Assembly (NCBI GenBank): GCA_039555135.1 | Contig: CP114179.1 | Span: 2,170,001 to 2,234,000, forward strand | Direction of reading: 5' to 3' | Origin: Phycisphaeraceae bacterium D3-23 | Lineage (GTDB): Bacteria > Planctomycetota > Phycisphaerae > Phycisphaerales > Phycisphaeraceae | Length of the DNA stretch: 64,000 nt | Part shown: in pieces, positions 18,202 to 35,871 of the stretch | Position numbering within the stretch: the stretch's first letter is position 1 | How the letters are laid out: the number at the start of each line of letters is the position of its first letter | Position numbers and translations under genes: made by a program | Notes under the pieces: generated by a model | Database searches by the model: none | The model's input: only the letters and a program-made list of their open reading frames with translations | Told to the model about the DNA's origin: nothing

Positions 18202-19141
18202 GAAAATCCTCACCTTCTTGTGAACGCGGAGCAATCAAGGATACGTACAGCTCCGGCACAGTCGTGGAGTCTGTATTCGATTGCGTCTCTGCCGTGCGGC
18301 TTTGTGGTTGTGGGGAAGGAACACCACGAATCGAGCGTCAAATCAGCAACTCCTTGACCGGCTTGGACGAGCACTTTTTGCATTGGTGCTCCAAATCCCA
18401 GGGTAGATGGATTCATGAGCCTAGTTTAGCGGAAACGCCCTATTTCAGTCCTTCCCGATGCGGTTCCGGGGTTTTGATTCCATTTTGCCAAGCAGAGTAC
18501 TTGCCTCGCACCATTTTCACCAGCCTTTCTCCGGCCGCGCCACGCCGGACGACCTAGGCCCATGGCACTGGGGTCGCCGCCTACCTCGCCCGAGCATTCA
18601 AACGGCCATGGCGAAGCCATCGGTCTAATGTGTGATCCGTCGAATTGGTGCGAGTCGCGACTTCAACTCGGCTTCAAGAGGTTCTTCTACCTCAGCTGAC
18701 TTCCGCGCCCACGGTCGGAAGGCCAAGCTAGTTGGGCGACTCATCGCCGATCGATCATCGCTGACCGTACAGTAGCAGCCATTGTGTTTGGATCACCGAA
18801 GATGGGTTAGATTCGGGCGGAGATTGCCACCCTCTCCGCTCCCGCCCGCCGGTTCTTCCCAACATCTTCCCAGTGGCGAGGAACTTTCTGTGTCGGTGCG
18901 AAGTGACGAGCCGTGAGGGTCAGAGCCGTAAACTGATTTATGCAATGCATTTATCGCATCGTGGTGGTGCTGGCAGCGGCGTTGAAGGGGTATTCTTCTC
19001 AATCCCGCCCTCTCCGCTTAGCTCACCGCCCGTCAGGGCATTTGCGCCCTAAATCGTGCCTTCTATGGTGCTAAATCGGCGTCCCGTACATCCAGACGGG
19101 CCCTTTTTGATTGGGGCCTGCCCTTCGGGCTTGGCTTTCAT
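18202..19141. other. Gene-free region between the defence operon and the IS
   Basis: About 940 bases with no convincing coding frame on either strand; the short ORFs here lack ribosome sites and recognisable composition. It must hold the promoter of the seven-gene minus-strand operon, but I could not pick out a clear -35/-10 pair. It also holds a weak hairpin followed by five T at 19083-19108, and a stretch near 18996-19020 that loosely resembles the 3' end of a tRNA. The right boundary of the island may lie here. Confidence 0.5.
19083..19108 (+). terminator. Weak rho-independent terminator-like hairpin
   Basis: A CCCGT/ACGGG stem with an eight-base loop is followed by CCC and TTTTT. It is just upstream of the IS left end. 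No plus-strand gene is recognised upstream, so its role is unclear. Confidence 0.35.
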
Positions 19142-20321: not shown

Positions 20322-23147
20322 TCAGTACCGCGCGCCGGGCGGCGGCGTGACGGCGTACCAGCGGAGCGTGCCATCGGCGAAGAGGACGGCGAAGTCGTCG
20401 CCCCGGCCTAGCGGCACGACCGAGACCGGGCGAGACTGGTGACGACCAGGCCAGATGATGCGGTCGATGGCGCTGAGTTTGCCGCTGTGTGTGCTGAGGA
20501 TACGGCAACTGTCGGCGTCTGCCGCGACGAGGAGACCGGCGTTGTTCGTGAACGCGATGATCGGCCCATCTACATCCTGCAGCGCACGCTGCGCGTGGTG
20601 CGTCCCGGCGTGGTTCCACACGACGGTGACGCCGGTGATGTGCGCCAGGGCGTAGCGCGACCGGGCGAACGCGGCCGCACCGGCGATCTGCACGATGGGC
20701 CCGCCCATGATTTCTTCATCGACCTGCTTCCCGTTGGCGAAGCGCAGCACGACGCGACCGATCGCAAGGATGACTTCTTCACGCCGGGCGTGCAGGCCGA
20801 TGAGCGGTTCGTCCGGCATGTCCGAAAAACTGAGGATGGCCTGAGGCGAGAGCGCTACGTTGATCGATTGGATCAGCGCACCCTCGTTGTTGTAGGCATT
20901 GAGCACATACTCCGGGGCGTCGGCCTGTGTCCCGACCAAGGCCCATAGCAGGCGCGGCGCATCACCCGATAAGGCGAGGGTCTGGCTGGGCAGGAACGCC
21001 GGCGTCTCGACACTGACCGCGGGGCCCGATTCGATGGGCCGCCACTGCATGCGCTTGACACCCGGCCGCCCCCTCAGGAAGACGGCCAACCCAACGCCAT
21101 TGGGTTCGGGCCGGGCCGCGGCGTGTACGGTGCGTGCATAGGTGTACGGGTCTTCGCAGGCCGTTTCGTCGAGCCAGTCGTAGTCACAGCACAACGATTC
21201 GGTCGCACGCGCGACCCACAGCTTGGGCGCGGGGTCGTGCGCTTCTTTCTCGTCGATCTGCCCGATCGCGAGGACCTGGCCTTCTGCGGCGAAGGCCGCG
21301 TGCCAGTCGCCATCCGGCAGCGCGAGGGTTTGGGTGAGGGCCATGCATTCCGACCGATCGGCGGGCCGGGCCGGCAACATGGGTTTGGAGCGCCGGCTCA
21401 GCTGCGTGATGTAGCGCTGCGCGTCTCGGCCCAGGAGCCGGTCGTCGGGCGCGAGGTGGCGGACGGCGTCGGTGAAGATGCGGGCCTGCGACTCGGAGCG
21501 CTCGCGCGGCAGGTGCAAGCCCGCGAGCCCGAGGGTCGCATCTTCAAGCTGTTGGCGGACGGCCGGCTCGGGGTAGCTCCGGTGTGCCTCGGCGAGGGAG
21601 CGTGCGAGGCGTCCCGCGACGGGCGTCTGCTCGGCGTCGGCGGTGAGCTCTTCGATAATGTCGCTCGCCGGGGCGTGCCGCCCGGTCCGGCCCGCGAAAT
21701 CGAATAGCGCCGCGAGGCAGCCCGCGTCGCGCAACGGCGCGACCGCACCCCGGCGCAGGGCCTGCTCGGTGGCTTCGAGGTCGTGGAGTTTCTGCTCGTA
21801 GAGCTTCGCGGCCGCGAGGTACTGCCGGGCCTCGGCGTGTCGATCGGCGGCGTGGCGGTACCAGCGCTCGGCCTGTTCGTGTTGTTCGAGGCGTTCGTAA
21901 AGCGACGCCGCCTCGATCCAGCGGTCGCGGTCGAGGTAGAGCGCGATGGCGTCGGCGAACAGCCCGCCTCGCTCGAGGCAGCGCGCCGCGGCGACGGGCT
22001 GGCGCAGCTTGTCGCGCAGGATCACCGCCGCCTCGCGGTAGTGCCCGCCTTCTTCAAGCACGCGCGCCGCCGCGTCCGCGTCGCCCAGTAGCTTGCCGTA
22101 TATGTAAGCCGCCCGCCGATACCGCCCGGCCGCAGCCTCATTCACCGCCATTTCGCGGTACCGCTTGCTCAGCTCACGGCGCTGTTCCTCGGCGATCTCC
22201 CACGGGTCGGCCGGCCCGCCGCCGTACATCCCGCCCAGCGAGAAGCCTGTGTTTTGCCGTGTCAGTTCGTTGCCCGCCTGCCCCATCCCGCGCGCCTGCG
22301 ATAGACCCGACAGCGGGATCGCATACGACAACGCCTCGGCCGACTTCTTGCCCAGCATGTCGAGCAGCCGGTTGATCTCCTGGTTGCGCTTGCGCTGGTC
22401 GGCGCGCTGCGGCGTGTTCTGCCGAGCGTTCGCCCACGCGCCGAGCTTGTCGATCCATGTCGGCCGACCGCTGGTGGCCGGGGCCTTCGACGCGAGCCAG
22501 CCGAGCACGCCCGCCAGCCCGCCGACCATGCCTTGGCCCGCCTTGTTGATCGTGCCGGGCTCGCCCTCGTCATCCGTCGGCGGCAGCTCGCTCAACGGTT
22601 TGTCGCCCAGCCCCACGCCGAGTTGCGCATCAAGCTCCTCCAGCGTCATCACCTGCGTCGGCTCGATCGCCACAAGCCGAGACCCCACGCCCGCGCCGGG
22701 CTCGGGCATCGACCACGCCGTTGCGCGCAGCGCACTGCCCGACAGCAGGTCCATCAAGCGCAGCACTTCGCCGGGCTCGTAACCCACCAGCCCGACGCTC
22801 GGGTGGAACACTGCGCTGGGCGTGGCGAGCAGCGTCGCGAGCTCGGCGTCGGTCACCGCCGGGTCGAGCCGGGCGTGTGTCGGGACGAACAATCGCTCGG
22901 CGACGAGCGCGTAGGGCTGCGCCTGCGGCGTCGGCCGCGTGTACAGCGTTGGGCCTGTGAGCAGCGCGGCGATCGGCGTGCGGTCATGCGCCGAACGCGG
23001 GATCAGGCGGAGCTCCAGCTGGCTCAGCGCAACGCCGGTCTGCGCCGCAGCGGACAGCCACGCTGCCGCCTCGCCGCCCGGGACCAGCCAGGCGGTCGGC
23101 TCACGCATCGCATGCGCACATAGAACTAGGCGGAGTTCGCAGTTCAC
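20322..23147 (-). CDS. TPR-like and beta-propeller protein of a MoxR-vWA-bpX ternary system (bpX6-like)
   Basis: 941 aa; GTG start at 23147 overlaps the preceding stop by 4 bases (GTGA). The N-terminal third is mixed, followed by a low-complexity linker. Residues about 310-480 are helical repeats with recurring AAAYIYGKLLGD and AARCLERGGLFADA patterns, like TPR or clathrin-type repeats. The C-terminal 350 residues are beta-rich and look like propeller blades. The gene is the last of a minus-strand operon with MoxR and vWA genes, which matches the MoxR-vWA-bpX conflict systems; large last genes of this kind carry bpX domains. The exact bpX class is from memory and unverified. Confidence 0.6.
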   Translation of the reverse strand: MNCELRLVLCAHAMREPTAWLVPGGEAAAWLSAAAQTGVALSQLELRLIPRSAHDRTPIAALLTGPTLYTRPTPQAQPYALVAERLFVPTHARLDPAVTDAELATLLATPSAVFHPSVGLVGYEPGEVLRLMDLLSGSALRATAWSMPEPGAGVGSRLVAIEPTQVMTLEELDAQLGVGLGDKPLSELPPTDDEGEPGTINKAGQGMVGGLAGVLGWLASKAPATSGRPTWIDKLGAWANARQNTPQRADQRKRNQEINRLLDMLGKKSAEALSYAIPLSGLSQARGMGQAGNELTRQNTGFSLGGMYGGGPADPWEIAEEQRRELSKRYREMAVNEAAAGRYRRAAYIYGKLLGDADAAARVLEEGGHYREAAVILRDKLRQPVAAARCLERGGLFADAIALYLDRDRWIEAASLYERLEQHEQAERWYRHAADRHAEARQYLAAAKLYEQKLHDLEATEQALRRGAVAPLRDAGCLAALFDFAGRTGRHAPASDIIEELTADAEQTPVAGRLARSLAEAHRSYPEPAVRQQLEDATLGLAGLHLPRERSESQARIFTDAVRHLAPDDRLLGRDAQRYITQLSRRSKPMLPARPADRSECMALTQTLALPDGDWHAAFAAEGQVLAIGQIDEKEAHDPAPKLWVARATESLCCDYDWLDETACEDPYTYARTVHAAARPEPNGVGLAVFLRGRPGVKRMQWRPIESGPAVSVETPAFLPSQTLALSGDAPRLLWALVGTQADAPEYVLNAYNNEGALIQSINVALSPQAILSFSDMPDEPLIGLHARREEVILAIGRVVLRFANGKQVDEEIMGGPIVQIAGAAAFARSRYALAHITGVTVVWNHAGTHHAQRALQDVDGPIIAFTNNAGLLVAADADSCRILSTHSGKLSAIDRIIWPGRHQSRPVSVVPLGRGDDFAVLFADGTLRWYAVTPPPGARY

Positions 23148-25998
23148 ATCATCCGTTTCAGGATCGGCAGAATCAGTTCGCGGTAGGCCTCGGCCCCCGT
23201 GAGCTGCAAGGCCTCGGGGTTGGGGAAGTAGTATCGGTCACCGAACACACGGCCGTCGGAGAACCAGCCGGACACATTGTTCTGCTCGAAGACCAGCGTC
23301 ACCTCGCCCAGCGCCTTGTCGTCGGGCTGGAGGTGGAGCATGCCTCGGCTGTCCAGCACGATACGCCCTGTCTTGACGGCGGGCGCTTCGGTGGTTGGCA
23401 GGTGCAGTGTGCCGTGTTGGTCGAGTTTGACACTGCTATACACGCCGCTGTAGTTGATCGCCGAGAGCTTGTAGCGCGTCCCGGCGGGTGAAGCGATGGT
23501 ACGGAACGGCTGATACCCGATGTGTTTATCTTCGCCGTGCTGCGGGCGTAGGTAGAGGCCGTCGCCCCGAACCTCGAGCTGCGAGATATCCTTGCGCGAG
23601 ACGAGCTCAAGGATCGGCTCGCCGCCGTCGTAGGTCTGGAACTGCGCCCCGGTGAATTTCACGCGCGGCGACCGGCGGATACACATCTTCGCGATGTCGG
23701 GCTCGAGCCAGGTGTCGCTGAGCGTTCCTGGGGCAACCTTCTTGACTTGGATGCCCTGATCGCCGACCACAACCTGCCGGGAGACGGCCACCTGTTTTTT
23801 CGACAATGTGTAAAGCTGGATGCGTTTGGCGTCGCGCGAGACATTGACCCGCGCGTCGCGGCCAATCGGTTCCAGCAGGCAGTCAGGTGTGTTACGCGGC
23901 GGGTCGAAATCGCGGTAAACCGCGCCGTCTTTACTGACTACGGTCGGGGTATCGCTGCCTTCGTGCTCAACGATCTTTAGGACGCTGTAGGGCTTGATCT
24001 TCGGGTTGAACCGATCAATCTGTATCTGATTCGCGTCGTACTGGAGTCGCGACCACACATGGTTTTTGTCAAACAGGTATCGCCCGTCCATCCGAAAACT
24101 TCGCATGCCGCCGCGCGGAAAGTCAAGCTGAGCCAACACCTGCCCGGTGAGTGGATCGATCGCGCAGATGTAGCCCCGGCTGGCGGCCAGCACGACACCG
24201 CGTTGACACGTGACGCCGATCACCATGCTCTCGCCGGGCAGCTCAATCGGGCGGACTTCGGCGGTGTTGTTTTCGAGGTCGATGGTGAGCGTGTGAAGCT
24301 CCGCGTTTTTGCCCAGCCGGCCGATGATCGCGTCGATCGGTGCGGGCTGTGTGCCGGCCGCGCACCAGAGCAGCTTGTTCGATGGCAGCGTGTCGCCCAG
24401 CTGGATCGGCCCGAACGCGCGCTGGTCCCACATCGTCAGCCGATGGTCGCCCGTGAGGACGTATGCGCGGTGCCCCTTCGTCGGGCTGAACCAGGCGGAC
24501 TTCATATCGAACTGGTGCGGGATGCGCAGCGGGAGTGTGTTTTGACGGATCGCGGCGGGGAAGCCACCCTCTTTGGCGTGGTCGATGAGCGGCTGCGTCT
24601 TCTTGGATTTTTCGAGCAGGTCGTTGGGGTCGACGGTGGTGTGTGCGAGCTGGCGCATCCCCCGCGGCGCTGCGCATGAGCAGCATAACGCGGCCGTTGG
24701 CGTCGACCGTGACGATGTACAGCGCAGCGCTGCGCTGGTCACTCAGCATGCGTATGACGGCGGGGTCTTTCAGCGAGCGGGCATGGGTGACGATGACGAG
24801 TTCGCCGGCGTCTTGCTTGGCGATACGTTCGGCAGCGAGCTCGATCGCGGCGGCGGGCGTAAGGTTAAGTTCCAGCTTGCCCAGCAGCGTTTCGAGCCCG
24901 GCCGGCGTCAGCGGGTCGGCGGGGGCCGAGCCCGCGTAGGTCGTGTGGTGGCAGGCGAGTTCTACCCCCGCGTCGCCGCCCGCGCACAGCGCGAGCGCGG
25001 CCGCGACCGCGATCAGCCGGGGCACGCCCCACTGCCGCAGCCCGACGTCGATGATGAGTTCCCGGCTGATCGGCGGCTGGGCCTTGCCCTCCTCGCGCCG
25101 CAAGGTACAGCGCCTGATTGTTCGCGACACGCACCGCGAGAGTGAGGTCGTCCTGCGCGAGCTCGCTCAAGAGCAGCCGGTCGAGCCGGCCGCGGTTGGT
25201 AATATCGCTCAGCCCGCCCAGCGGCATGTCGCGTGGTTGGCCCAGCCCGCGCGGCAGCCGGAGCGCGGCCAGCAGGTCGCGCGTCACTTTGCCCAGCGCG
25301 GCATATTGTTCATCGGCGCACAGGTGCTCGATCATCGACCGCGCTGCGTCACAGGCCGGCGGTAGCTCATCGAGTGCTTCGATGGGCTGGGCTTCGGCCT
25401 CCAGCCCCGTATTAGCAAAGCGGCGAAGCGACTCGGGCGTCACACGGTCAAGCCCGTCGTCAAGCGTGCGCAGGTCCAATAGCAGCCGATCGAATCCGTC
25501 CCGCGACGCGCTGCCCGCGAGCATCTCAATCGACGGCCCGGCACGCAGCACCTCGATCACAGGACCCGCCTGGTCTGCCGGGACCTCGGTGATGCAGCTG
25601 TCGAAGACAAGCTGGAGGGCGGCGCGGCGCTGCGCCGGGTCGTCCACCGCCGTGACGACCTGGTGGAAGTCGGCGAGCTTCCCGGTGACGCGCTCATGCA
25701 GTCCGGCGGGCAGGTAGCGGCCAGCATTCTCATAGATCGAGACGCAGGTGGTCTGCAAACGGTCGAGCGCCGCGCGGTTCTCCCACCCACGCTTCATCGC
25801 GTCCAGCACCAGCAGCAACGCGCCGAGCGGCGGCAGACCGCCCTCATCAAACGTGGACAGCGCATCGGCCAGCTCCGGGCGGAACGCGAGCAGCTCGCGC
25901 GTCGGAAGCGTCAATGCGCTGCCGTCCTGCTCCCACTGCCAGAACGTGGGCAGCGAAGGTGCAAGATACTTCTTTGCGACCAGCATGTCGGTCAGCAT
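23144..25998 (-). CDS. vWA and beta-propeller protein of the MoxR ternary system, two apparent frameshifts
   Basis: Start ATG 25998 overlaps the upstream stop by seven bases. The N-terminal about 300 residues (MLTDMLVAKKYLAPSL onward) are helical. The frame then shifts in 25092-25103, where an extra base in a GCG/GCG stretch must be skipped to read REEGKAQPPISRELIIDVG, the start of a vWA domain with MIDAS-like IIDVGLRQWGVPR. A second shift lies in the run of five C at 24659-24663; skipping one base restores RSAAGMRQLAHTTVDPND, leading into a C-terminal propeller (ending LPILKRMM). The rejoined protein is about 950 aa. Conservation on both sides of each break suggests either very recent damage or sequencing indels. 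MoxR AAA+ proteins act on vWA partners, so these two genes are functionally linked. Confidence 0.65.
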
Positions 25999-26741
25999 AG
26001 GGCGTCCTTCTCGGGCGAAACACCTCGCGTCGGCCGACCGATCTGTCGAAGCGTCGCGCGCGTCGCGGCGACGAAGCAGTCCTCGGGCAGCAGCGACCAA
26101 CCGCCGTCGGGGCCGAAGACCGCGAGCTGCTCGGGCTTCAATCCGACCACACCCGCCACTTCCGTGCATGTCAGCGGTAGCGCAAACCCAAAACCCGCAG
26201 GCACCGCGACGCCCGCCTCCACGGCGTAGCGGTCCCCCGGCAGCGGCGGCAGCGGTTCCCCCCGCAGCGCGACACACTGCTGCTCCCGATCGACCGCGAC
26301 GGACAACGGCGACAGCCGGAGCTGCGACGCACCTTCGGCCCATTGCCGGACTGCGCGATACGTTGTGAGCAGCAGGTTTGCACGGCGCTCATCCGCGCTA
26401 CGCACCAACGAAAGTGCGATGCGCTGCCCGGTCTGCCCCGCAAACTGCGCCTTAGGTGCCTTCAACTGCATCCATTGTGACAGCCCTACCCACGCCCCTT
26501 CAGGCACCACACCGACCGGGAGTGCATGGTCCACCGGGATCAGCCCGCCGTCGGCACGCACGGTGTAGCGCCCCTCCGTCGGCAGCCGACGCACCGCCAG
26601 CGTATCGAGCGCCGCGTGGTCTTCCCCGCGCAGCCAGAGGGACGGCCCATCGGCCAGGACCGACAGGCCTTCTTTACACCGCAGCGGCCCAAGCAGCGCC
26701 GCGTGCTGTGTCGAGATGCGCAGCGCCCACGCCGTCGTCAT
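25992..26741 (-). CDS. Small accessory protein of the MoxR-vWA system (bpX5-like)
   Basis: 249 aa; ATG 26741 overlaps the MoxR stop by 4 bases. The sequence is beta-rich with repeated aromatic and proline turns (RLPTEGRYTVRADGG, EPLPPLPGDRYAVEAG, VAVPAGFGFALPL) and no catalytic motif that I recognise. Its fixed place between the AAA+ gene and the vWA gene is typical of the MoxR-vWA-bpX ternary systems, in which small bpX proteins are encoded there. I infer a structural adaptor. The bpX5 label is from memory of domain order, not from a search. Confidence 0.5.
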   Translation of the reverse strand: MTTAWALRISTQHAALLGPLRCKEGLSVLADGPSLWLRGEDHAALDTLAVRRLPTEGRYTVRADGGLIPVDHALPVGVVPEGAWVGLSQWMQLKAPKAQFAGQTGQRIALSLVRSADERRANLLLTTYRAVRQWAEGASQLRLSPLSVAVDREQQCVALRGEPLPPLPGDRYAVEAGVAVPAGFGFALPLTCTEVAGVVGLKPEQLAVFGPDGGWSLLPEDCFVAATRATLRQIGRPTRGVSPEKDALC

Positions 26742-27901
26742 TGCTTAACTCCGAGCCGTTGCCACAGCCCCGCGAGCGTCGCCTCGAGCGCCTCACGCTG
26801 CGCGCCGTTGTCGACCCACTGCACACGGCCCGCCAACACACCCACACGGTCCTGCAAGTGCGCACGCCCGGCATCATTCAGGTCCGCATCGTCCAGCGCA
26901 TCCCCGATCACCGCCAGGTCACGCGCGAGCGCCTCCGCGTCGGGCCGGGTGTTCTCGACCGATCGGCCGTGACGCGCGCCCGCCTCGTCGCCGGCCTGCC
27001 CGATGACCTGGTCGACCATCTCACGGATCAACTCACGCTGCTCCATCACGTCCCAGATGTAACGCATCACCCACAGGTCGCTGGGCTGTGCAACTTCACG
27101 CCCGCAAAGCAACGCGCTCGCCGCAACCACACGCTGAAGCTTCACCGCCCGTCGGTCGGACACCGCGATCCCTGCACGCCGAAGCCGGGCAACCAGCTCC
27201 AGGTACGGCTCGCGCACGGATGAGAGGTCCACGTTTGGGACCACCGCCTGCAACGTGCGGATCGACTCGACGGTCGCGCCCTCCCCGGCCACGCCCGTCG
27301 CCGAGTCGCGTTCGATCTGCCAGCCCGCGTTGAGCACATCACGCAGCCGCTCCGACTCGACGTTTTCACAAAGCACACGCAACAGAAACCTGTCGAACAG
27401 TGCGCCCAAGGTTTCGTCCTCAGGCAGCCGGTTGCTCGCGCCGATGAACATCAGCGCGGGTAGCTTTCGGGTCTCACGCCCCCGGCGGAAGACGCGTTCG
27501 TTGAGTGCCATCAGCAAGCTGTTGAGGATCGCGCTGTTCGCGTTGAGCAGCTCATCGAGGAATACGAACTCCGCCTCGGCGAGCATGCCCTCGGTGTTGG
27601 TGACCAGCTCGCCCTCGCGCAGCTTGCGGATGTCGAACGGACCAAAGAGTTCGTTGGGCTCGGTGAAACGGGTGAGCAGGTAGTCGAACACCCGGCCGTC
27701 GAAGCGTCGGCTGAGGTCCTGGACCAGCGCGCTCTTGGCCGTGCCGGGGGGCCCGAGGATGAAGAGATTTTCTCCGCCGACGAGGCAGACGCCCAGCAGG
27801 TCGATGACCTCGTCTTTGCCGACGAATCGGCGCTTCATCGGTTCGAGGACGTCCCGGGCCAGGGCCGGGCCCATTGTCGCAGTGTCGTTGGTTGCGGTCA
27901 T
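26738..27901 (-). CDS. MoxR-family AAA+ ATPase
   Basis: 387 aa. Walker A is GPPGTAKS (residues 50-57), Walker B is FVFLDELLNAN, and sensor region FIGASNRLPEDE is followed by an arginine-finger stretch FDRFLLRV. This is the MoxR/RavA layout. MoxR ATPases work as chaperones for vWA-domain proteins. ATG 27901 overlaps the upstream stop by 4 bases and the next gene overlaps in turn, so the operon is tightly coupled. C-terminal about 90 residues are helical and specific to this subgroup. Confidence 0.9.
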   Translation of the reverse strand: MTATNDTATMGPALARDVLEPMKRRFVGKDEVIDLLGVCLVGGENLFILGPPGTAKSALVQDLSRRFDGRVFDYLLTRFTEPNELFGPFDIRKLREGELVTNTEGMLAEAEFVFLDELLNANSAILNSLLMALNERVFRRGRETRKLPALMFIGASNRLPEDETLGALFDRFLLRVLCENVESERLRDVLNAGWQIERDSATGVAGEGATVESIRTLQAVVPNVDLSSVREPYLELVARLRRAGIAVSDRRAVKLQRVVAASALLCGREVAQPSDLWVMRYIWDVMEQRELIREMVDQVIGQAGDEAGARHGRSVENTRPDAEALARDLAVIGDALDDADLNDAGRAHLQDRVGVLAGRVQWVDNGAQREALEATLAGLWQRLGVKQ

Positions 27902-28629
27902 GGATTCGTTTCCGTCGGTCGTGGATTCGGTGCGGGGGTCGGTCGGGTCGAAACGGGTTCGGGCCAGAGCACGCCGCGCAGCTTGGCGCTTACCAGTTCA
28001 CGGTGCGGCCCTACGGCCGACCGCGCGGCCTTGGCCACGGCAGGGTCCTCAAGCCGGCCTGCGTCGCCCAGCCGGAGCACGCGGTCGACATACGCCGAGC
28101 GCAGCGCGGGGGTGTTCAGGAGACCGGCCAGCCGTTCGGGTTCGGTTGTGACACCCGGCACGCCGACGGACGACAGCGGCCAGTCGTAGGCGAAACGCAT
28201 GAGCCGAGCCACGAGCGGGTCGTCGCTCAGCGCACCCCCGGCCAGGCGGACCAGGTCCGGCAAGAACCGGCCCACAAGATCGACGGCGTAGTGTGACCCT
28301 GGCCGGACGTCCTGCGTGACGGGCCCGTCGAGCAGTTGTTCGACGACCTCGGCCGGGACGTGTCGGCTGATCACCAGCCGCGCGGCGATGTAGAAGTACA
28401 CGGCCGTCTTCAGCGCGGTGTCAATCTCCAAGCCAGGCGGCGACAGCGGCCAGTCAACCCGCACGATCTGTTCGTATTGCGCAAGCACGCGCACCCCTTC
28501 GGCACGCTCCTCGGGCGCTACCATCGCCAACACGTCCGGCGACGCCGGCAGCCCCTCGGGCCCATCGATCGGCGGGACGCGCACGGCCCCGGCCTCAATC
28601 AGCTCACGGATAAAATCTGGGAATGACAT
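27898..28629 (-). CDS. First gene of the MoxR-vWA ternary operon (bpX4-like helical protein)
   Basis: 243 aa, start ATG 28629 with AAGGA about ten bases upstream. It opens MSFPDFIRELIEAGAVRVP, is predominantly helical, and ends in a Pro/Thr-rich tail (TRPTPAPNPRPTETNP). I do not recognise a catalytic motif. First-gene position upstream of MoxR and the N-terminal pattern fit small bpX-type adaptors in the MoxR-vWA-bpX systems. It is divergent from the STM4015 gene across 136 bases. Confidence 0.5.
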   Translation of the reverse strand: MSFPDFIRELIEAGAVRVPPIDGPEGLPASPDVLAMVAPEERAEGVRVLAQYEQIVRVDWPLSPPGLEIDTALKTAVYFYIAARLVISRHVPAEVVEQLLDGPVTQDVRPGSHYAVDLVGRFLPDLVRLAGGALSDDPLVARLMRFAYDWPLSSVGVPGVTTEPERLAGLLNTPALRSAYVDRVLRLGDAGRLEDPAVAKAARSAVGPHRELVSAKLRGVLWPEPVSTRPTPAPNPRPTETNP

Positions 28630-28765
28630 CGCCCGAAATCCTTAGGAAGACGGACGATCATACCGCCGACCTATGGGTTTGGCCGGGCCGACCGACCCAC
28701 GAAACTACAAGAATTGCGCGATCGGGTAAGCTAATCGCCACGCCATCCACCCCGGGAGCACGACG

Positions 28766-29701
28766 ATGATTCTCGACAACCTCAAGACGTTTTTCGGCCT
28801 GCCTGTGAGCGATTTCAAGCCGGGCGATACGCTTGAGCAGCCCGGGGCTGCCGCGGTCCGGGTTCGGCTGGACTGGGACGATTACGACGCGAAGAAGTCG
28901 ATCGCCGACGCGCTTCAGGCCCTATTCGAGCAGCCCGGGGCCGACCAGGTTTCTGCGCTGGTCGTCGGGGACTGGGGCGGCGCGGGCGAGGGCAACGGCA
29001 TCGAGCCGGTGATCGAGATCCTGGTCGGCGCGGCCGACAAACTACCCAACCTCAAGGCCCTGTTCCTCGCCGACATGACCTCCGAAGAGTGCGAGGTGTC
29101 GTGGATCACGCAGGGCGACCTGTCGCCGTTGTGGTCCGCGTACCCGGCGCTTGAAGAACTCGGCGTGCGTGGGTCGCAGGACCTGACGCTGGGCCGATGC
29201 GACATGCCTCAACTCAAGAAACTCGTCATCGAGACCGGCGGGCTCCCGCCGGAGGTCGTTGGCGAGGTCGCGCAGGCCAACCTGCCTGCGCTCGAGCACC
29301 TCGAGCTCTGGCTGGGCACGCCGGACTACGGGGGCGACACGACGGTCGCGGACCTGCTGCCGATCCTCAACGGCGGACGTTTCCCGAACGTCCGCTACCT
29401 CGGCTTGCGCAACGCGGAGCTCGCGGACGAGATCGCGAAGGTCGTCGGCGACAGCGCGATCACCCCGCAGCTCGAATTGCTCGACCTCTCGCTGGGCACC
29501 CTCCGCGACGAGGGCGCACTAGCGCTCGCGGCGTCGAATAACCTGGGCCATCTGACCAAGCTCGATGTGCACCACCACTTCATGACGGACGCGGGAATCG
29601 AGGCGCTGCGCGGGCTCGGCGTCGCGCTGGACGCGAGCGATCAGCAAGAGCCCGAGAAGTACCGCGACGAGACGTACTACTACGTCAGCGTTTCCGAATA
29701 G
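28766..29701 (+). CDS. STM4015 family leucine-rich-repeat protein
   Basis: 311 aa with GGGAG eight bases ahead of ATG. After a leader domain (KTFFGLPVSDF, then QVSALVVGDWG) it has leucine-rich repeats such as LPNLKALFLADM, YPALEELGVRGS, LPALEHLELWLG, FPNVRYLGLRN and QLELLDLSLG. This is the pattern of the STM4015 family, first seen in Salmonella beside STM4011-4014. The next four genes are the other members in reverse numerical order, which makes the identity secure. The role is unknown; LRR solenoids usually bind other proteins. Confidence 0.8.
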   Translation: MILDNLKTFFGLPVSDFKPGDTLEQPGAAAVRVRLDWDDYDAKKSIADALQALFEQPGADQVSALVVGDWGGAGEGNGIEPVIEILVGAADKLPNLKALFLADMTSEECEVSWITQGDLSPLWSAYPALEELGVRGSQDLTLGRCDMPQLKKLVIETGGLPPEVVGEVAQANLPALEHLELWLGTPDYGGDTTVADLLPILNGGRFPNVRYLGLRNAELADEIAKVVGDSAITPQLELLDLSLGTLRDEGALALAASNNLGHLTKLDVHHHFMTDAGIEALRGLGVALDASDQQEPEKYRDETYYYVSVSE

Positions 29702-29711
29702 GCGGTGCGGC

Positions 29712-30893
29712 TTGACGCTTTCGCCCGCGACAAAGTTCTTGATGATCGGCACGCCGGACGAGGTGCGCACCAGGGGGTTCAATGAAGCGCTGGCCGACGC
29801 GGGGTTGGGGCCGGCGGAGGTATTGAGCTACCCGGAGTTGCTGCGTCTCGAGACCGGGCCGCTTGAGGCGATGATCAACGAGGTCGACTGGGTGCGCATC
29901 GAGTCGCCCGGACGCGACCGCGCGGTAGTCGATGTGGTCCGTGCGTACGCGGGGTCCGCATGGTTTCACGCAGCGGAGTATCCGGGGCTTGCCGTCCAGG
30001 CCGCCCAGCCCGTCACCCCCAAAGGTGTGATTGATCGGCCCCGGCTGTTCTCGCGTGGGCTGTGCCAGGCGATGGTTCGGATTGAACACGCGCGGCGTGC
30101 CGGCGGTGATACACCCTTTCTCAACGCGCCCGAAGGGATCGCACTGGCCTGCGATAAGCCGGGGGCCTGTGCGCATTTAGCGCAGCATGGCATCGGTATC
30201 CCGGGCCCGATTTCGGATGCCGACCACGAGTGCCGTAGCTACGACGATGTCCGCAATACGATGGCGGATGTCGGCTGTCGTCGCGCATTCATCAAACTGT
30301 CGCACGGCTCGGGTGCCTCTGGCGTCGTCGCGTATCAGTTCAACGCGACGCACGAGTTGGCGACGACGACGGTCGCACTCCATCACGGCCCCGACGGCGT
30401 ACAGCTTTGCAACACCCGCAAGATCCAGCGTTATGACGATTCGGCCGACATCCGTATGTTACTAGACAATCTGTGCCCGATGGGGGTGTACGTCGAGCGG
30501 TGGGTGCCCAAGGCCGGGGTCAATGGGCGCACGACCGACCTGCGCGTTGTGACGATCGCGGGTGAACCCAGGCATACGGTGCTCCGGCTGAGCCGCTCGC
30601 CGATCACGAACCTGCACCTTCTGAATGAACGGGCCGACCCGGCGCTGCTGCGTGGACAGATGCGGCCGACGGATTGGGACGCGGTGATGGAGACATCTCG
30701 GCAGGTTGCGCGCTGCTTCCCGCAGATGCTTTACCTCGGGATCGACCTCGCGGTTCACGCCGACCTGCGCGGGCACACGGTGTTCGAGGTCAACGCGTTT
30801 GGCGACCTGCTGCACGGCGTTACGCATCGCGGACAGAGCACCTACGCCGCACAGCTCGAAGCGCTTGAACAATGGGGCCCGCACCATGCCTGA
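29712..30893 (+). CDS. STM4014 family ATP-grasp protein
   Basis: 393 aa if it starts at TTG 29712; the next in-frame ATG (29742) would cut into the first strand of the fold (KFLMIGTPDE). ATP-grasp features include the ERWVPKAG strand near the middle, DLRVVTIAGEPRH, and FEVNAFGDLLHG near the end with the metal-binding Glu and Asn. ATP-grasp enzymes ligate a carboxylate to an amine or thiol through an acyl phosphate. It lies ten bases after STM4015 and overlaps STM4013 by eight. The substrate is unknown. Confidence 0.8.
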   Translation: MTLSPATKFLMIGTPDEVRTRGFNEALADAGLGPAEVLSYPELLRLETGPLEAMINEVDWVRIESPGRDRAVVDVVRAYAGSAWFHAAEYPGLAVQAAQPVTPKGVIDRPRLFSRGLCQAMVRIEHARRAGGDTPFLNAPEGIALACDKPGACAHLAQHGIGIPGPISDADHECRSYDDVRNTMADVGCRRAFIKLSHGSGASGVVAYQFNATHELATTTVALHHGPDGVQLCNTRKIQRYDDSADIRMLLDNLCPMGVYVERWVPKAGVNGRTTDLRVVTIAGEPRHTVLRLSRSPITNLHLLNERADPALLRGQMRPTDWDAVMETSRQVARCFPQMLYLGIDLAVHADLRGHTVFEVNAFGDLLHGVTHRGQSTYAAQLEALEQWGPHHA

Positions 30894-31713
30894 TGGTAAC
30901 GCTGACATGCTCGACGCGGCTTCACTAATCGGCCGGTGTGACGTGCTGTTCATCACCCTGGACACGCTGCGCTTCGACGTCGCGGACGACGCGATGCGTG
31001 CCGGGCGGACGCCGACGCTGCAGGCGCTGCTGCCGGGCGGCGTTTGGGAGCGTCGTCACAGCCCGGCCTCGTTTACATATGCCGCGCATCAGGCGTTTTT
31101 TGCGGGATTTTTGCCAACCCCCGCCGAGCCGGGCCCGCACCCGCGTCTCTTCGCCGCACGCTTCGCGGGGAGCGAGACGACCACGCCCAAGACCGCAGTG
31201 TTTGATGCGCCCGACATTGTGACGGGTTTCGCGGCAAAGGGCTACGCGACGGTCTGCGTGGGTGGCGTTGGTTTTTTTAGCCGCCTGACGCCGCTTGGGT
31301 CGGTGTTGCCAGACCTTTTTGAGGAGGCTCACTGGTCGCCCGAGCTCGGCGTCACCAGCGCAACTTCGACGCAGGCGCAAGTCGATCTCGCGCGGGCCCG
31401 GCTCGATGCGATCGGCGAGGATCGGCGCGTTTTCCTCTTCATCAACGTCTCCGCACTTCACCAGCCCAACTGCATCTTCTCCTCCGAGGCAACGAACGAC
31501 TCCCCCAAGACGCAGGCCGATGCGCTGGCCTATGTGGATGAGCAGCTCTCGCCATTGTTTGAGGCGCTGCGCCAGCGCGGTGACACGCTGTGCATCCTCA
31601 CCTCCGACCACGGCACCTGCTACGGCGAAGACGGCTACCATGGGCACCGGATCGGGCACCGCGCCGTCTGGGAGGTGCCCTACACCGAGATTCTGCTGGA
31701 AGGGGAACGCTAG
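30886..31713 (+). CDS. STM4013/SEN3800 family sulfatase-like hydrolase
   Basis: 275 aa; ATG 30886 with GGGG about eight bases upstream is preferred to an upstream ATG at 30706 that lies in a shadow frame. Alkaline-phosphatase-superfamily metal sites are visible: LFITLDTLRFDV at the N-terminus and ILTSDHGTCYGEDGYHGHR at the C-terminus. There is no C-x-P-S/T-R sulfatase motif, so the nucleophile is not formylglycine; it may be a phosphodiesterase or phosphotransferase rather than a sulfatase. It is the third gene of the five-gene cluster. Confidence 0.8.
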   Translation: MPDGNADMLDAASLIGRCDVLFITLDTLRFDVADDAMRAGRTPTLQALLPGGVWERRHSPASFTYAAHQAFFAGFLPTPAEPGPHPRLFAARFAGSETTTPKTAVFDAPDIVTGFAAKGYATVCVGGVGFFSRLTPLGSVLPDLFEEAHWSPELGVTSATSTQAQVDLARARLDAIGEDRRVFLFINVSALHQPNCIFSSEATNDSPKTQADALAYVDEQLSPLFEALRQRGDTLCILTSDHGTCYGEDGYHGHRIGHRAVWEVPYTEILLEGER

Positions 31714-31717
31714 CAAC

Positions 31718-33061
31718 ATGCCGACGACGCAGACCGACCGCGCCCACCCGCTACTCAGCGACACGCCCTATGCGTCGTATGTCTATGGCTATCCGCACAA
31801 AACCGCGTACCGACCGTTCGACTCGCCCAAGCCGCTCGATGCGCTCTGGAACGGCGAAGACCGCGGCTCGCTATTTCTGTACGTGCATATCCCGTTCTGC
31901 GAGATGCGGTGTGGGTTCTGCAATCTATTCACGACGGTCGATCACCGTGCGCGAAGCACGGATAGTTATCTGGATGCGTTGGGGCGTGAGGTCGATCAGG
32001 TCGCGGCCCGGCTCGGCGATGCGCGCTTCGCGCGGATGGCGGTCGGGGGCGGGACGCCGACGTTTTTGGCGGTGGAGCAGCTCGCGCGTGTCTTCGACCT
32101 GATGCAGGACCGGTTCGGTGCCGACTGCGGCGCGATGCCGACGAGTGTCGAGACGTCGCCCGCCACGGCGTCGGGGGAGAAGCTTGCGCTGCTGCGCGAG
32201 CGCGGCGTGAGTCGGGTGAGTATCGGCGTGCAGTCGTTTGACGAGGAAGACGCGCGGCGGATCGGCCGGCCGATGCGAAGAGCGGAGATGCTCCCCGCGC
32301 TCGGGCGCATCCGCGACGCCGGCTTCCCGCTGTTCAACATCGACCTGATCTACGGCGGCGAGGGCCAGACCACCGCGAAGTGGATGGCGAGTGTTGTGGA
32401 AGCGGTGTCGTTTGACCCCGAGGAGCTGTATCTCTACCCGCTCTACGTTCGGCCGTTGACAACCCTGGGTAAGCTCGACCATTCGTGGGACGACCAGCGG
32501 CTCGAGGCCTACCGCGCTGCGCGCGACTACCTCGTTAACGCGGGCTACCGGCAGGTCTCGATGCGGATGTTCCAGAAGCACGGCGCGGGCGAGCCCGCGT
32601 CGTCGAGCGCGCCGCACTACTGCTGCCAGAGCGACGGGATGGTCGGCGTCGGCTGCGGCGCGCGGTCGTATACGTCGGCGGTGCATTTTTCGAGTGAGTA
32701 TGCGGTGGGCCGGTCGGGGGTCCGCGCGATCCTCGACGACTACTGCGCGCGGCCGGCCGCCTCGTTTGCGACGGCGGGCCACGGCGTTGAGCTCGACCGA
32801 GACGAACAGGCGCGGCGGGGCCTGATCATGTCGCTGCTGCAGTGCGACGGGCTCGATACCGCCTTGTTTGAACTCCGATTTGGCGAGCATCCTGCTGCGC
32901 GATTCCCCGAGCTCAGTGAGTTGGAGGCGCTTGGCTTGATGGTGCGCGAGCCCGGCCGTCTGCGGCTGACGCCGATGGGGATTGAGCGGTCGGATTCGGT
33001 CGGGCCCTGGCTATACTCGTCGGCGATACGTCGGCGGATGGAGGCGTACCGCCTACGATGA
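31718..33061 (+). CDS. STM4012 family radical SAM protein (HemN-like)
   Basis: 447 aa from ATG 31718, the first ATG after the STM4013 stop; a longer upstream frame from 31295 is a shadow. VHIPFCEMRCGFCNLF gives the C-x3-C-x2-C iron-sulfur motif (C61, C65, C68), followed by a GGGTPTFL SAM-binding strand and a SIGVQSFDEEDARRIGRP segment as in coproporphyrinogen III dehydrogenase. The C-terminal HemN-like extension is present. In this family the heme function is not assumed. It overlaps STM4011 by 4 bases. Confidence 0.88.
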   Translation: MPTTQTDRAHPLLSDTPYASYVYGYPHKTAYRPFDSPKPLDALWNGEDRGSLFLYVHIPFCEMRCGFCNLFTTVDHRARSTDSYLDALGREVDQVAARLGDARFARMAVGGGTPTFLAVEQLARVFDLMQDRFGADCGAMPTSVETSPATASGEKLALLRERGVSRVSIGVQSFDEEDARRIGRPMRRAEMLPALGRIRDAGFPLFNIDLIYGGEGQTTAKWMASVVEAVSFDPEELYLYPLYVRPLTTLGKLDHSWDDQRLEAYRAARDYLVNAGYRQVSMRMFQKHGAGEPASSSAPHYCCQSDGMVGVGCGARSYTSAVHFSSEYAVGRSGVRAILDDYCARPAASFATAGHGVELDRDEQARRGLIMSLLQCDGLDTALFELRFGEHPAARFPELSELEALGLMVREPGRLRLTPMGIERSDSVGPWLYSSAIRRRMEAYRLR

Positions 33062-34017
33062 CGCTGTCGATCCTCTACCGCGGCGAGCTGTCGGGCTGCA
33101 ACTACGGCTGCCCGTACTGCCCGTTCGCCAAGCGCGTCGATCGGCCCGAGCACCTGACGAAAGACCGGGCGCAGGTCGAGCGGTTTGTCGATTGGGCCCA
33201 GCGACAGGCGGATCGGCAACTGGGTGTGTTCTTTACGCCGTGGGGCGAGGCGCTGGTTCGGCCGTGGTATCAGGAGGCGTTGGCGCGCCTGAGCCGGATG
33301 CCGCATGTTGTGTCGGCGGCGATTCAGACCAACCTGTCGTGTACGCTGCGCTGGCTCGAGCGGTGCGACCTCTCGGCGCTCGGGCTGTGGTGTACCTACC
33401 ACCCCGGCGAGGTCAGCCGTGACACATTTCTTAAGCAGTGCCGAGCGTTGGACGCGGCCGGGGCACGCTACAGCGTCGGCGTGGTGGGTTTGCGTGAACA
33501 CTTCGACGAGGTCCGCGCACTGCGTGCGGGGCTTGAGGATTCGGTGTACCTCTGGGTGAACGCTTACAAGCGTGAGCCGGGCTACTACAGCGATGCGGAT
33601 GTCGATCTACTCGCAGAGATCGATCCGTTGTTTGAGTTGAACAACCGCTACTACCCGACGCGTGGCCGGGCGTGTCACGCGGGTCACTCGGCGGTGTCGG
33701 TGGATGGCGAGGGTACGGTTCGCCGGTGCCACTTCATCAAAGCGCCGATTGCGAACATCTATGAACGCGGCTGGGCGAAGGCGCTTGAGTCGCGCGGGTG
33801 TACGAACAATCAATGCGGGTGCCACATCGGCTACGTCCACCTTGAGGCGCTGGAGCTGGACACGGTATACGGCCAGGGGCTGCTCGACCGCATCCCCGAG
33901 CGCCCCCTGTCGCGCGGGGAAACACGCGACCGCATCGAGCGCTTCTATGCGGGCAATCGCGGCGCGCCTGTTGGCGTATCGCTAACGCTGCAGGGCGAAG
34001 TGATTGCACCGCAATAG
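33058..34017 (+). CDS. STM4011 family radical SAM protein
   Basis: 319 aa; ATG overlaps the STM4012 stop by 4 bases. SGCNYGCPYCPFAK supplies the C-x3-C-x2-C motif (C14, C18, C21). Further cysteines occur in GRACHAGHSAVSVDG, RRCHFIK and CTNNQCGCHIGY, which look like ligands for an auxiliary cluster as in SPASM-type enzymes. Two radical SAM enzymes with one ATP-grasp enzyme suggest synthesis of a modified small molecule or peptide. Last gene of the cluster. Confidence 0.85.
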   Translation: MTLSILYRGELSGCNYGCPYCPFAKRVDRPEHLTKDRAQVERFVDWAQRQADRQLGVFFTPWGEALVRPWYQEALARLSRMPHVVSAAIQTNLSCTLRWLERCDLSALGLWCTYHPGEVSRDTFLKQCRALDAAGARYSVGVVGLREHFDEVRALRAGLEDSVYLWVNAYKREPGYYSDADVDLLAEIDPLFELNNRYYPTRGRACHAGHSAVSVDGEGTVRRCHFIKAPIANIYERGWAKALESRGCTNNQCGCHIGYVHLEALELDTVYGQGLLDRIPERPLSRGETRDRIERFYAGNRGAPVGVSLTLQGEVIAPQ

Positions 34018-34131
34018 GTGCCTTGCCTGCAGTATTCTCCCCGGGGTCATGGGGCAGGCGAGCTTCAGCATCTGGGTGTTAGCATGTTGGTGCTCGTTTT
34101 CAGTCGATCTTGACACAAGTTAGGGGTGTTC

Positions 34132-35871
34132 ATGGATACGGACCGACAAGTAATCAGTTGCCCGCACTGCGCGAAGCGTTACGCCGTACGGCCGCTGACC
34201 AAGAGCAAGCAGGTGCAGTGCCCGGGGTGTCAGCAGGGCTTCATCGCTTCACCCGCCGAGCCGCCGCAGGCCGCGCCGCCCACGACGGGCGATGCGGAGA
34301 TCGTCTGGTCGGACGACGCAGGCGGAGAAGAAGCGGAGGCGGGCGGGTTGCCGGTGTTGCCGATTGTTGTGGGTGCCGTGTTTGTTGTGCTACTTTCGGG
34401 TGGCGTCCTTTGGTACTTCACGCAGCCGGACGAGAGCGCGTCGGATTTAGCTGTGGACGATACGCCGCTCCCCACGATGCAGTTGGGCGGCGATCCGTCT
34501 GATACCTCACCTCGCCGGGATCGTGCGGGTACCGCGCCCGATGGTGTTGACGCGCCGACGCCGCTCGGCGATGGCGAGGTCGTTGAAGTGCCGATCCGCC
34601 TGACCGAAGCCGACCTCGGGAATGAAACACGCCTCCTCGCGTTCATCAATGCGCGTTACCCCAGCGGCCGTGTGCCCGGCGACCTGCGCAGCGGGATCGT
34701 CGACGCGGCGATCGCGAACCACCGCGCGGGCGACGATGCGCGCTACCGTGAGTTGCTCGATTACTACCGCGGCTTCACGGTCGGCCGAGACGGCGGCAAG
34801 ATCGATACCGCACGTCGGCTGGTCCGTGCGGGGCTGGTCGATGATGGCTTGGCTTTTGCGCGCGAGATCGAGCACCCGACGGTGTATGTCAACTTCTACG
34901 CGTCGTTGATGGACACCCTCGGGGCGGAGCCGGGCGACCCGGCGTTTGAGCAGTACGCGGAGGAGGCCTGGCTCTATGTGCGCGACCGCAACCCGTCGGC
35001 GGCAGAGGTCTTGGCGCGTGCGCTGATCCGGCGTGGCGATATCGCGATGACGCTGGCGCGGCTCGAAGTCCTGGGGGACCGTGACAACCTGAACAACGCG
35101 TACAACGTACAGGCGCTCGCGCACCACCCCGAGGCGCTGGACCGCGCGATGGCGATGGTTGCGGAGATCGAGCTTCGAAGCGGGCGGGACCGGTCGCGGA
35201 TCTGGCTGATCGACCCGCTGGCCGAGGCGGGCCGGTGGTCAGATGCCTCGGCGGTGGCATCGCAGGTCGAGGACGAGATTGTCCGTCGCCGGTCGGCGAT
35301 CGTGCTGCATCTGGCGGAGCGTCGGCGGGGTCGGCCTCTCTCGCAGCCGTGGGATGCGTTGGCCGAGGCGGCTTGGGTGGGCTTTGAACGAGTGAGTACC
35401 GAGTCGTGGCACGAGCTGGCGCTCGCGGTCATAGAGGGCCACCTCGCGGCCGGCCAGGCCGAGGACGCCCAGGCGTTTTTCGATACGTATTTTGCGGCGC
35501 TGGGCGAGGTGTACCGCGAATCGACCGCGATCGAGGTGGCGGATTTGTTCCACCGGGCGGATGAGCCCGACCGCGCCCGCGCGATCTATATCCAGAGCGG
35601 CAAGGAACCATACTTCTACAGTCAGTCGGGGCTGGACGAGTATCTCAAGGATGGCCGGCTGACGCGCGAGACGCTAGGCGATGCGCTGGCGTACGCCAAG
35701 GACCTCAAGTATTGGCCCGATGAGTTGATGTATCGGTTGGGCTTCGAGATCTATGCGCAGGGGCTGGGCGACGAGCCGGCGTGGATCGCGTACGCCACGG
35801 GCGATCTGCCCGAGCACTACCTGCTGCATCTGTCGCTGGGGATGGTCGAGCACGCTCAGTCGCCGCGGTAG
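34132..35871 (+). CDS. Zinc-ribbon single-pass membrane protein with helical repeats
   Basis: 579 aa from ATG 34132, with AGGGGTG just upstream; a GTG two codons earlier is possible. The N-terminus has a MJ0042-type zinc ribbon (ISCPHCAKRY then QCPGCQQGF; C10, C13, C30, C33), an acidic Gly-rich linker, and one membrane segment at about 73-97. The rest is helical with TPR-like stretches (ARRLVRAGLVDDGLAFARE, DRALAMVAEIELRSGR-type repeats). Such zinc-ribbon TM proteins are common and poorly known in planctomycetes. It follows the STM cluster by 114 bases and may be independently transcribed. Its 3' end overlaps the convergent sulfatase gene by 16 bases. Confidence 0.75.
   Translation: MDTDRQVISCPHCAKRYAVRPLTKSKQVQCPGCQQGFIASPAEPPQAAPPTTGDAEIVWSDDAGGEEAEAGGLPVLPIVVGAVFVVLLSGGVLWYFTQPDESASDLAVDDTPLPTMQLGGDPSDTSPRRDRAGTAPDGVDAPTPLGDGEVVEVPIRLTEADLGNETRLLAFINARYPSGRVPGDLRSGIVDAAIANHRAGDDARYRELLDYYRGFTVGRDGGKIDTARRLVRAGLVDDGLAFAREIEHPTVYVNFYASLMDTLGAEPGDPAFEQYAEEAWLYVRDRNPSAAEVLARALIRRGDIAMTLARLEVLGDRDNLNNAYNVQALAHHPEALDRAMAMVAEIELRSGRDRSRIWLIDPLAEAGRWSDASAVASQVEDEIVRRRSAIVLHLAERRRGRPLSQPWDALAEAAWVGFERVSTESWHELALAVIEGHLAAGQAEDAQAFFDTYFAALGEVYRESTAIEVADLFHRADEPDRARAIYIQSGKEPYFYSQSGLDEYLKDGRLTRETLGDALAYAKDLKYWPDELMYRLGFEIYAQGLGDEPAWIAYATGDLPEHYLLHLSLGMVEHAQSPR

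Follow-up and report, generated by a model that had tools for sequence, protein, structure and literature searches.

The described systems closest to the STM4011-4015 gene cluster analyzed here are those built around the ATP-grasp ligases RimK and LysX/ArgX, the pearlins and the MoxR-vWA ternary systems. RimK adds glutamate (Glu) to the C-terminus of ribosomal protein S6, its acceptor being the end of a folded protein, and in the pearlins the residue is added by a peptide aminoacyl-tRNA ligase. The acceptor of LysX is LysW, a protein with zinc-binding cysteines that ends in the motif EDWGE, and the amino group is coupled to the gamma-carboxyl of its C-terminal Glu (PMC10433800); this Glu is described as crucial, the tail carrying it as acidic and containing an aromatic residue, and further enzymes are described as acting on the charged carrier (PMC10433800, PMC9303977). 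In the case of the pearlins, a carrier peptide is described as the base on which a small molecule is assembled, one step being of the radical S-adenosylmethionine (SAM) type (PMC9303977). The cluster studied here occupies positions 28766-34017 of a 64,000-nucleotide stretch of the genome of Phycisphaeraceae bacterium D3-23 (Planctomycetota; assembly GCA_039555135.1, contig CP114179.1, positions 2,170,001 to 2,234,000 of the forward strand), which is called the window below, and it lies head to head with a MoxR operon. The operons adjoining STM4011-4015 belong to the MoxR-vWA FtsH and beta-propeller ternary systems of Kaur et al. (2020, PMC7159879), in the main text of which the terms leucine-rich, ATP-grasp and STM40 do not occur. 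No paper on the function of the STM4011-4015 cluster or of the protein tail discussed below turned up in literature searches, and single genes of the cluster are named in tables of two papers.

The five genes lie on the + strand in the order STM4015-4014-4013-4012-4011, which is also the order in a Salmonella record. They encode an STM4015-family leucine-rich repeat (LRR) protein, the proposed carrier or substrate (28766-29701; NF038076, 345.5 bits, cut-off 275), the putative RimK/LysX-type ATP-grasp ligase STM4014 (29712-30893, TTG start; NF038074, 325.3 bits, cut-off 175), STM4013, a hydrolase of the alkaline-phosphatase/sulfatase superfamily (30886-31713; NF038075, 402.4 bits, cut-off 250), the HemN-like radical SAM protein STM4012 (31718-33061; NF006067, 567.4 bits, cut-off 380), and STM4011, a radical SAM protein with SPASM/twitch-like cysteines (33058-34017; NF038073, 394.6 bits, cut-off 200). 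The complete ordered set announced by an earlier reading based on the letters and their open reading frames (ORFs), called here the sequence-only reading, is thus confirmed, all five proteins exceeding the curated NCBIfam cut-offs. The overlaps of 4-8 bases which it attributed to the whole set were recovered at two of the four junctions (STM4014/4013, 8 bases; STM4012/4011, 4 bases), the other two being gaps of 10 bases (STM4015/4014, using the first possible STM4014 start, 29712) and 4 bases (STM4013/4012, using the ATG at 31718). Its description of the set as biosynthetic fits the fact that the enzymes keep their cofactor- or metal-binding residues.

We propose that STM4011-4015 is a biosynthetic module acting on the terminal Glu of its LRR protein and linked in some lineages to MoxR-vWA conflict machines, a proposal to which we give about an even chance. 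The new element is the conserved C-terminal heptapeptide of STM4015 with its terminal Glu, the family consensus being R-[YF]-x-A-V-[GS]-E. Among 89 LRR hits including that of the window, 83 end in Glu. Arg occupies position -7 and Tyr or Phe position -6 in 78 hits each, and 75 hits have Val at -3; at -2, 42 have Gly and 34 have Ser or Thr. The last seven codons of the window's gene (29678-29698, + strand) encode YYVSVSE, which departs from the consensus at -7 and ends with Glu311, which is proposed as the attachment site on the evidence of the conserved terminal residue and the codon diversity. The six ends other than Glu are those of three Herpetosiphon paralogs, one Pyxidicoccus paralog and two weak hits (134 and 154 bits). 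In the three Herpetosiphon loci (L038, L040, and L053), it is the first of four tandem LRR paralogs that has lost or overrun the Glu end. In an alignment of 43 members, including proteins from Salmonella, Deinococcus, Streptomyces, Methylobacterium, Paenibacillus, and Bacteroides, all 43 sequences have Glu in the last column, which is one of 17 invariant columns, the fairer figure being 83/89, as near-duplicates, the tail-less Herpetosiphon paralogs, weak hits and length outliers were omitted from this alignment.

The Glu end was also found in all nine LRR proteins from seven of the 13 plasmid records with STM4011, including those of Salmonella, Bacteroides, and Paenibacillus, and in 11/11 further full-length members from Planctomycetota (10 over the cut-off and one at 269.5 versus 275 bits). 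Two distant Planctomycetota LRR homologs (101.6 and 139.6 bits) have neither the tail nor the Glu end, and at locus L151 STM4015 is cut short by a stop and the tail is missing. At another locus (L148, genome G285), a full-length STM4011 match is accompanied by a shortened STM4015 which still bears the conserved tail. The tail motif matches 75 of 6882 ORFs, every one of them a member of the STM4015 family, and the idea that the motif might be a general tag on other neighboring genes was rejected on these grounds. The synonymous codons of the tail vary freely, in that each of the four Val codons occurs at -3, Glu is encoded in both possible ways and three stop codons are used, so that selection acts on the peptide. 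It is hardly credible that the tail owes its conservation to translational coupling of STM4015 with the gene that follows: STM4015 is usually closely followed by a gene on the same strand, as such coupling would imply, but this explanation is largely refuted by the codon use just mentioned and by uncoupled genes such as that of locus L085, which keeps an intact tail although 596 bases separate it from its neighbor, a convergent gene.

The gene next to that of STM4015 encodes the ligase. Residues K149, K195, D345, E359, and N361 of STM4014 are invariant in the 40 sequences aligned. When a profile of 46 STM4014 proteins was compared with the PDB, LysX gave the best matches (1uc8, 1uc9, and 3vpd; E about 1e-6), followed by RimK. 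With the predicted structure of STM4014 (mean predicted local distance difference test score, pLDDT, 91.3), the first Foldseek matches were PsnB and ArgX-LysW, while in the VIA ranking RimK and RimK-RpsF (7qys, 5zct, and 5zk6), ArgX-LysW, LysX-LysW, and glutathione synthetase were tied on top with Z scores of 22.4-23.3. By sequence and predicted fold, STM4014 is an ATP-grasp protein of the LysX/ArgX/RimK type, to be taken as a type rather than an identity. Profile and model thus point to a ligase acting on a C-terminal Glu, and a nearly invariant Glu of this kind is encoded next door.

The likeness to LysW and its ligases LysX/ArgX consists of an ATP-grasp ligase of the same type, a partner protein ending in Glu and further enzymes that would act on the charged carrier. 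The differences are that the putative carrier is an LRR protein (nearest solved structure 2ra8) ending in R-Y-x-A-V-[GS]-E, with no LysW-like zinc protein, and that there are 2-4 carrier paralogs in 14/64 loci, together with two radical SAM enzymes and phosphohydrolases. With the RimK/S6 pair, STM4014 shares the ligase fold; the RimK system is not known to include radical SAM enzymes or an LRR protein. The pearlins differ in that their carrier is a peptide and the addition is not made by an ATP-grasp enzyme.

Since PsnB is a graspetide enzyme, its place as the first Foldseek match raises another explanation, according to which STM4014 would make a side-chain ester or amide ring in an acidic STM4015 tail and the radical SAM enzymes would add crosslinks. 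The matching PsnB structure contains a precursor, the fold is that of an ATP-grasp peptide ligase, an acidic stretch precedes many of the tails, and the STM4011 profile matches SkfB. This explanation is nevertheless improbable, given that position -2, which is divided between Gly and Ser/Thr, provides no fixed Ser/Thr or Lys ring partner and that the candidate substrate, in place of a short precursor bearing a leader, is a whole LRR protein, folded and at least about 280 residues long.

The other enzymes of the module show intact catalytic residues. In STM4011, C14, C18, and C21 (CX3CX2C) as well as C206, C224, C248, C253, and C255 are invariant in 38/38 aligned sequences, which is the SPASM/twitch pattern of a CX3CX2C motif plus auxiliary-cluster cysteines; the Bacteroides member gives a weak SPASM match, below the cut-off. 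The only PDB match of the STM4011 profile at E<=0.1 is SkfB (E 0.003), a peptide-modifying enzyme. Omitting sequences under 85% of full length, C61, C65, and C68 of STM4012 are invariant in 78/78 aligned sequences, T64, H68, and H192 of STM4013 are kept in 74/74, and D26, D241, H242, and H254 in 73/74. A HAD phosphohydrolase is encoded upstream of STM4013 in 12/81 loci, its identity having been established by Pfam in three of the 12, and in eight of them it lies between STM4014 and STM4013. A HAD phosphohydrolase of one type or another is a frequent sixth member (L073:7218-7889, L022:7235-7882, L071:7163-7882, L105:9834-10568, and L111:8965-10530). HAD proteins of another type occur after STM4011 in Salmonella and fused to STM4011 in Bacteroides.

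As regards the chemistry, the fate of the product and a role in conflict, we infer the following. The attachment point would be the last residue of STM4015, the nearly invariant Glu that ends the heptapeptide. STM4014 would phosphorylate a carboxylate of this Glu with ATP and join an amine to it, probably an amino acid. STM4011, STM4012, the metal phosphohydrolase STM4013, and at some loci a HAD phosphohydrolase would afterwards work on the tail or on the group joined to it. What results might either remain on the LRR protein, which would become a sensor or effector bearing its own added warhead, or be released, in which case the route would resemble that of an amino-group carrier protein. The presence of several LRR paralogs at one locus would suit a group retained on proteins of differing putative specificity. 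In the linked lineages, remodeling or deployment of the modified LRR protein would probably fall to the MoxR-vWA ternary machines, a role which is suggested by gene order. By narrowing the likely site of the chemistry to a single terminal residue, this proposal becomes testable by one mass-spectrometry experiment. If it is correct, an LRR recognition protein would join the small dedicated carriers known from carrier-protein biosynthesis, and the MoxR ternary systems described as being without a conventional effector would acquire a candidate one. It is doubtful, and we put it forward very tentatively, whether the cluster goes as far as producing LRR recognition proteins with an enzyme-built, non-ribosomal group on the C-terminal Glu, diverged LRR faces and a shared tail, which MoxR-vWA machines would load or release in conflict; this would be a protein-conjugated natural product serving as an immune effector or signal.

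The MoxR operon of the window is encoded on the - strand and starts 136 bases upstream of STM4015. It consists of a run of six genes, all over the Pfam cut-offs: bpX4 (27898-28629; PF19920, 136.6 bits), the AAA+ ATPase bpMoxR (26738-27901; PF20030, 321.3 bits), bpX2 (25992-26741; PF19918, 166.6 bits), bpX0 (24865-26001, an internal Met being taken as the start within a mechanical ORF that spans 24865-26343; PF19915, 42.9 bits, cut-off 27), bpX1 (23144-24742; PF19917, 47.9 bits, cut-off 27), and bpX3 (20322-23147; PF19919, 111.2 bits), which has a weak TPR-like region with weak SNAP/TPR matches. Judging from these matches, the run is composed of the named domains of the MoxR-vWA-beta-propeller ternary systems. 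The P-loop of its bpMoxR, GPPGTAKS, fits the GXXXTAKS variant described by Kaur et al. (2020, PMC7159879). No vWA or beta-propeller match was found in the three large proteins of the operon in a Pfam scan at E<=1, and the vWA domains of these ternary systems are described as divergent in that paper, the passages of which on the beta-propeller class report no conventional effector (PMC7159879).

The head-to-head arrangement and the 136-base gap (28630-28765, between the two first ORFs) were already part of the sequence-only reading and are borne out by the bpX and bpMoxR matches. The co-regulation which it read into this divergent region finds no support: no sigma-70-like promoter was recognized in a scan of positions 28500-34150, the gap between the operons included, and a genome of the same family, G022, keeps the neighborhood but not the layout. 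In G022, STM4011 precedes the MoxR operon and both are read in the same direction, separated by a DUF6745 gene pair on the opposite strand, in contrast to the divergence seen in the window. The STM4015 and STM4014 genes of G022 occur on a different contig.

The linkage of the cluster to MoxR systems is recurrent, and the co-occurrence beyond the genome of origin that was to be looked for was found. As the Pfam cut-off of bpMoxR is also reached by ordinary MoxR proteins (51/51 STM4011 genomes and 12/14 controls), stricter thresholds were used: at least 160 bits for the linkage count in 51 genomes and E<=1e-35 for the counts in 61 and 392 genomes, the label not being fully specific even at E<=1e-35, where it still matches 4/14 controls, Escherichia coli among them. 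The 51 other STM4011 genomes are 50 from the 80 loci collected plus G022. A strong bpMoxR is present in 40 of them and lies within 30 kb of STM4011 in nine, versus 0.43 expected. Seven of these nine are Myxococcaceae-type genomes (six titled Myxococcus or Pyxidicoccus and one titled Comamonas), and the linked lineages are three in number: the window's family (the window and G022), Thermoanaerobaculia (L075), and Myxococcaceae. In the Comamonas sp. record (L054, BNCN01000003.1), the MoxR, vWA, LRR, and STM4014 proteins are 82-99% identical to those of Myxococcus xanthus, so that its title looks wrong.

The same-strand runs differ between lineages. On the Thermoanaerobaculia contig (L075), the genes from STM4015 to STM4011 are followed on one strand by those of bpMoxR, a bpX5 protein, a 661-amino-acid protein and a bpX6 protein, and the frames of STM4011 and bpMoxR meet or overlap. 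In seven Myxococcaceae-type genomes (L063, L127-L130, L135, and L136), the order on one strand is fvmX7, bpMoxR, ivWA, one to four LRR genes and STM4014, with the STM4013-4011 half elsewhere, up to 28 kb away; in an eighth Myxococcaceae genome (G089) the run is divided between contigs. According to the domain matches (ivWA, ivWA-helical_N, and fvmX7) of the two members scanned, the Myxococcaceae MoxR is of the FtsH class, not the beta-propeller class. On a Verrucomicrobia contig (L067), a bpX3 protein is encoded beside the cluster and a strong bpMoxR on another contig. Kaur et al. (2020, PMC7159879) describe a radical SAM domain beside simple FtsH systems, which is thought to modify a separately encoded peptide effector; this domain probably corresponds to genes of the STM4011-4015 type.

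The two families were also counted together in genome samples. Among 61 genomes, that of the window included, STM4011 was found in two (the window's own genome and G022) and bpMoxR in three, both occurring together in two (hypergeometric chance 0.0016). In 392 Planctomycetota genomes, STM4011 is present in 13 (11 over the cut-off), bpMoxR in 49, and both in nine (Fisher 1.8e-6, uncorrected for relatedness); among these nine, only the window's pair is adjacent, while in the other eight the two genes are on different contigs or separated by at least about 119 kb.

Several observations weigh against the proposal that the terminal Glu is the site of a biosynthesis linked to MoxR machines. Four paralogs, the three from Herpetosiphon and the one from Pyxidicoccus, have no terminal Glu, two of the four ending in Asp. 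Tails within a locus were expected to outlast the LRR bodies, and this expectation is unsupported as a whole: in 36 paralog pairs from 14 loci the means are 0.55 for the body and 0.54 for the tail, the tails being no better kept, which is due to the divergent tails of the four paralogs just mentioned. STM4014 is 14-21% identical to LysX/RimK, and since glutathione synthetase is among the tied folds, the fold does not fix the acceptor. In the AlphaFold model of STM4015 (pLDDT 94.9), the tail is placed confidently (mean pLDDT 94 for residues 301-310 and 80 for residue 311), so that its function may be to cap the structure and not to serve as a free acceptor.

Alternatively, the tail could be a docking tag or cap, with STM4015 serving as a scaffold or specificity subunit that presents another, diffusible substrate to the four enzymes and the Glu being bound, not modified. 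We regard this as unlikely. Conservation at R-7, Y/F-6, and V-3 comes close to that of the Glu itself, as would be expected of a recognized peptide in a tail predicted to be ordered; likewise, the LRR core has blocks which are better conserved than the tail, which ranks 25th among 298 windows of STM4015, so that the idea of the tail as the most conserved part of the protein was rejected. What modification explains better is that the very last residue is kept as Glu with no extension after it and that the closest solved relatives of the neighboring ligase act on a C-terminal Glu.

As for the MoxR part of the proposal, 11/51 STM4011 genomes have no strong bpMoxR and 42/51 have none within 30 kb, although short contigs may hide some, so that a role for MoxR is not general; because of those 11 genomes, it is concluded that the cluster also works without MoxR. 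The linkage could moreover reflect the clustering of defense islands, MoxR and STM4011-4015 being neighbors only as mobile conflict genes that gather in the same places. This is possible but on the unlikely side. The window also carries DruE-like, DpdE-like, and methyltransferase genes, STM4011 is sporadic (as in the 61 genomes) and occurs on plasmids, and most STM4011 genomes show no nearby bpMoxR, all of which such gathering would explain; but the LRR and STM4014 genes on the same strand as fvmX7, bpMoxR, and ivWA in the seven Myxococcaceae-type genomes, and the STM4011 and bpMoxR frames that meet or overlap on the Thermoanaerobaculia contig, are tighter arrangements than co-residence would give.

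The STM4011-4015 cluster is widespread: the titles of the records carrying it include Planctomycetota, myxobacteria, Herpetosiphon, Rhodococcus, Flammeovirga, Deinococcus, Bacteroides, Salmonella, and others, and 13 plasmid records carry STM4011. STM4015 is present in 13 of the 392 Planctomycetota genomes (10 over the cut-off), 12 of which also have STM4011, and the LRR protein therefore goes with the cluster. STM4014 was present in 15/15 STM4011 genomes checked, at times far from STM4011. A phage origin of the cluster was rejected, with no matches in viral contigs and two Salmonella records in the phage collection; the latter (OR850900.1 and AFYI01000005.1), which carry STM4011, look like Salmonella DNA, judging from their labels. 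The idea that Bacteroides has a minimal three-gene system was also rejected, since this copy looks degraded, with STM4013 reduced to a fragment and no STM4012 in the stretch. A Salmonella "plasmid" (L105, NZ_LN868945.1) has typA, glnA-glnL-glnG, and hemN beside STM4011-4015, and either the replicon label or the assembly is odd.

Other genes were found around the clusters. A DUF6745 protein with weak LRR-like repeats is encoded beside the cluster in 15/81 loci, four of which were scanned (examples are L013:5223-6625, L022:10891-12207, and L091:8880-10261), with a partner of about 100 amino acids in 11/81; the pair also occurs in 4/7 plasmid stretches and was not seen beside the window's cluster. 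The MoxR operon of the window is flanked by a defense island on the - strand (5280-18234). It comprises two helicase genes, one DruE-like with DUF559 at one end (13006-18234) and the other DpdE/DrmD-like (10148-13057; 845 bits to DpdE), as well as the gene of a DrmMI/type IIG-like methyltransferase (5280-10184). A DUF4062 protein is encoded beside these helicase and methyltransferase genes (3145-4287, - strand).

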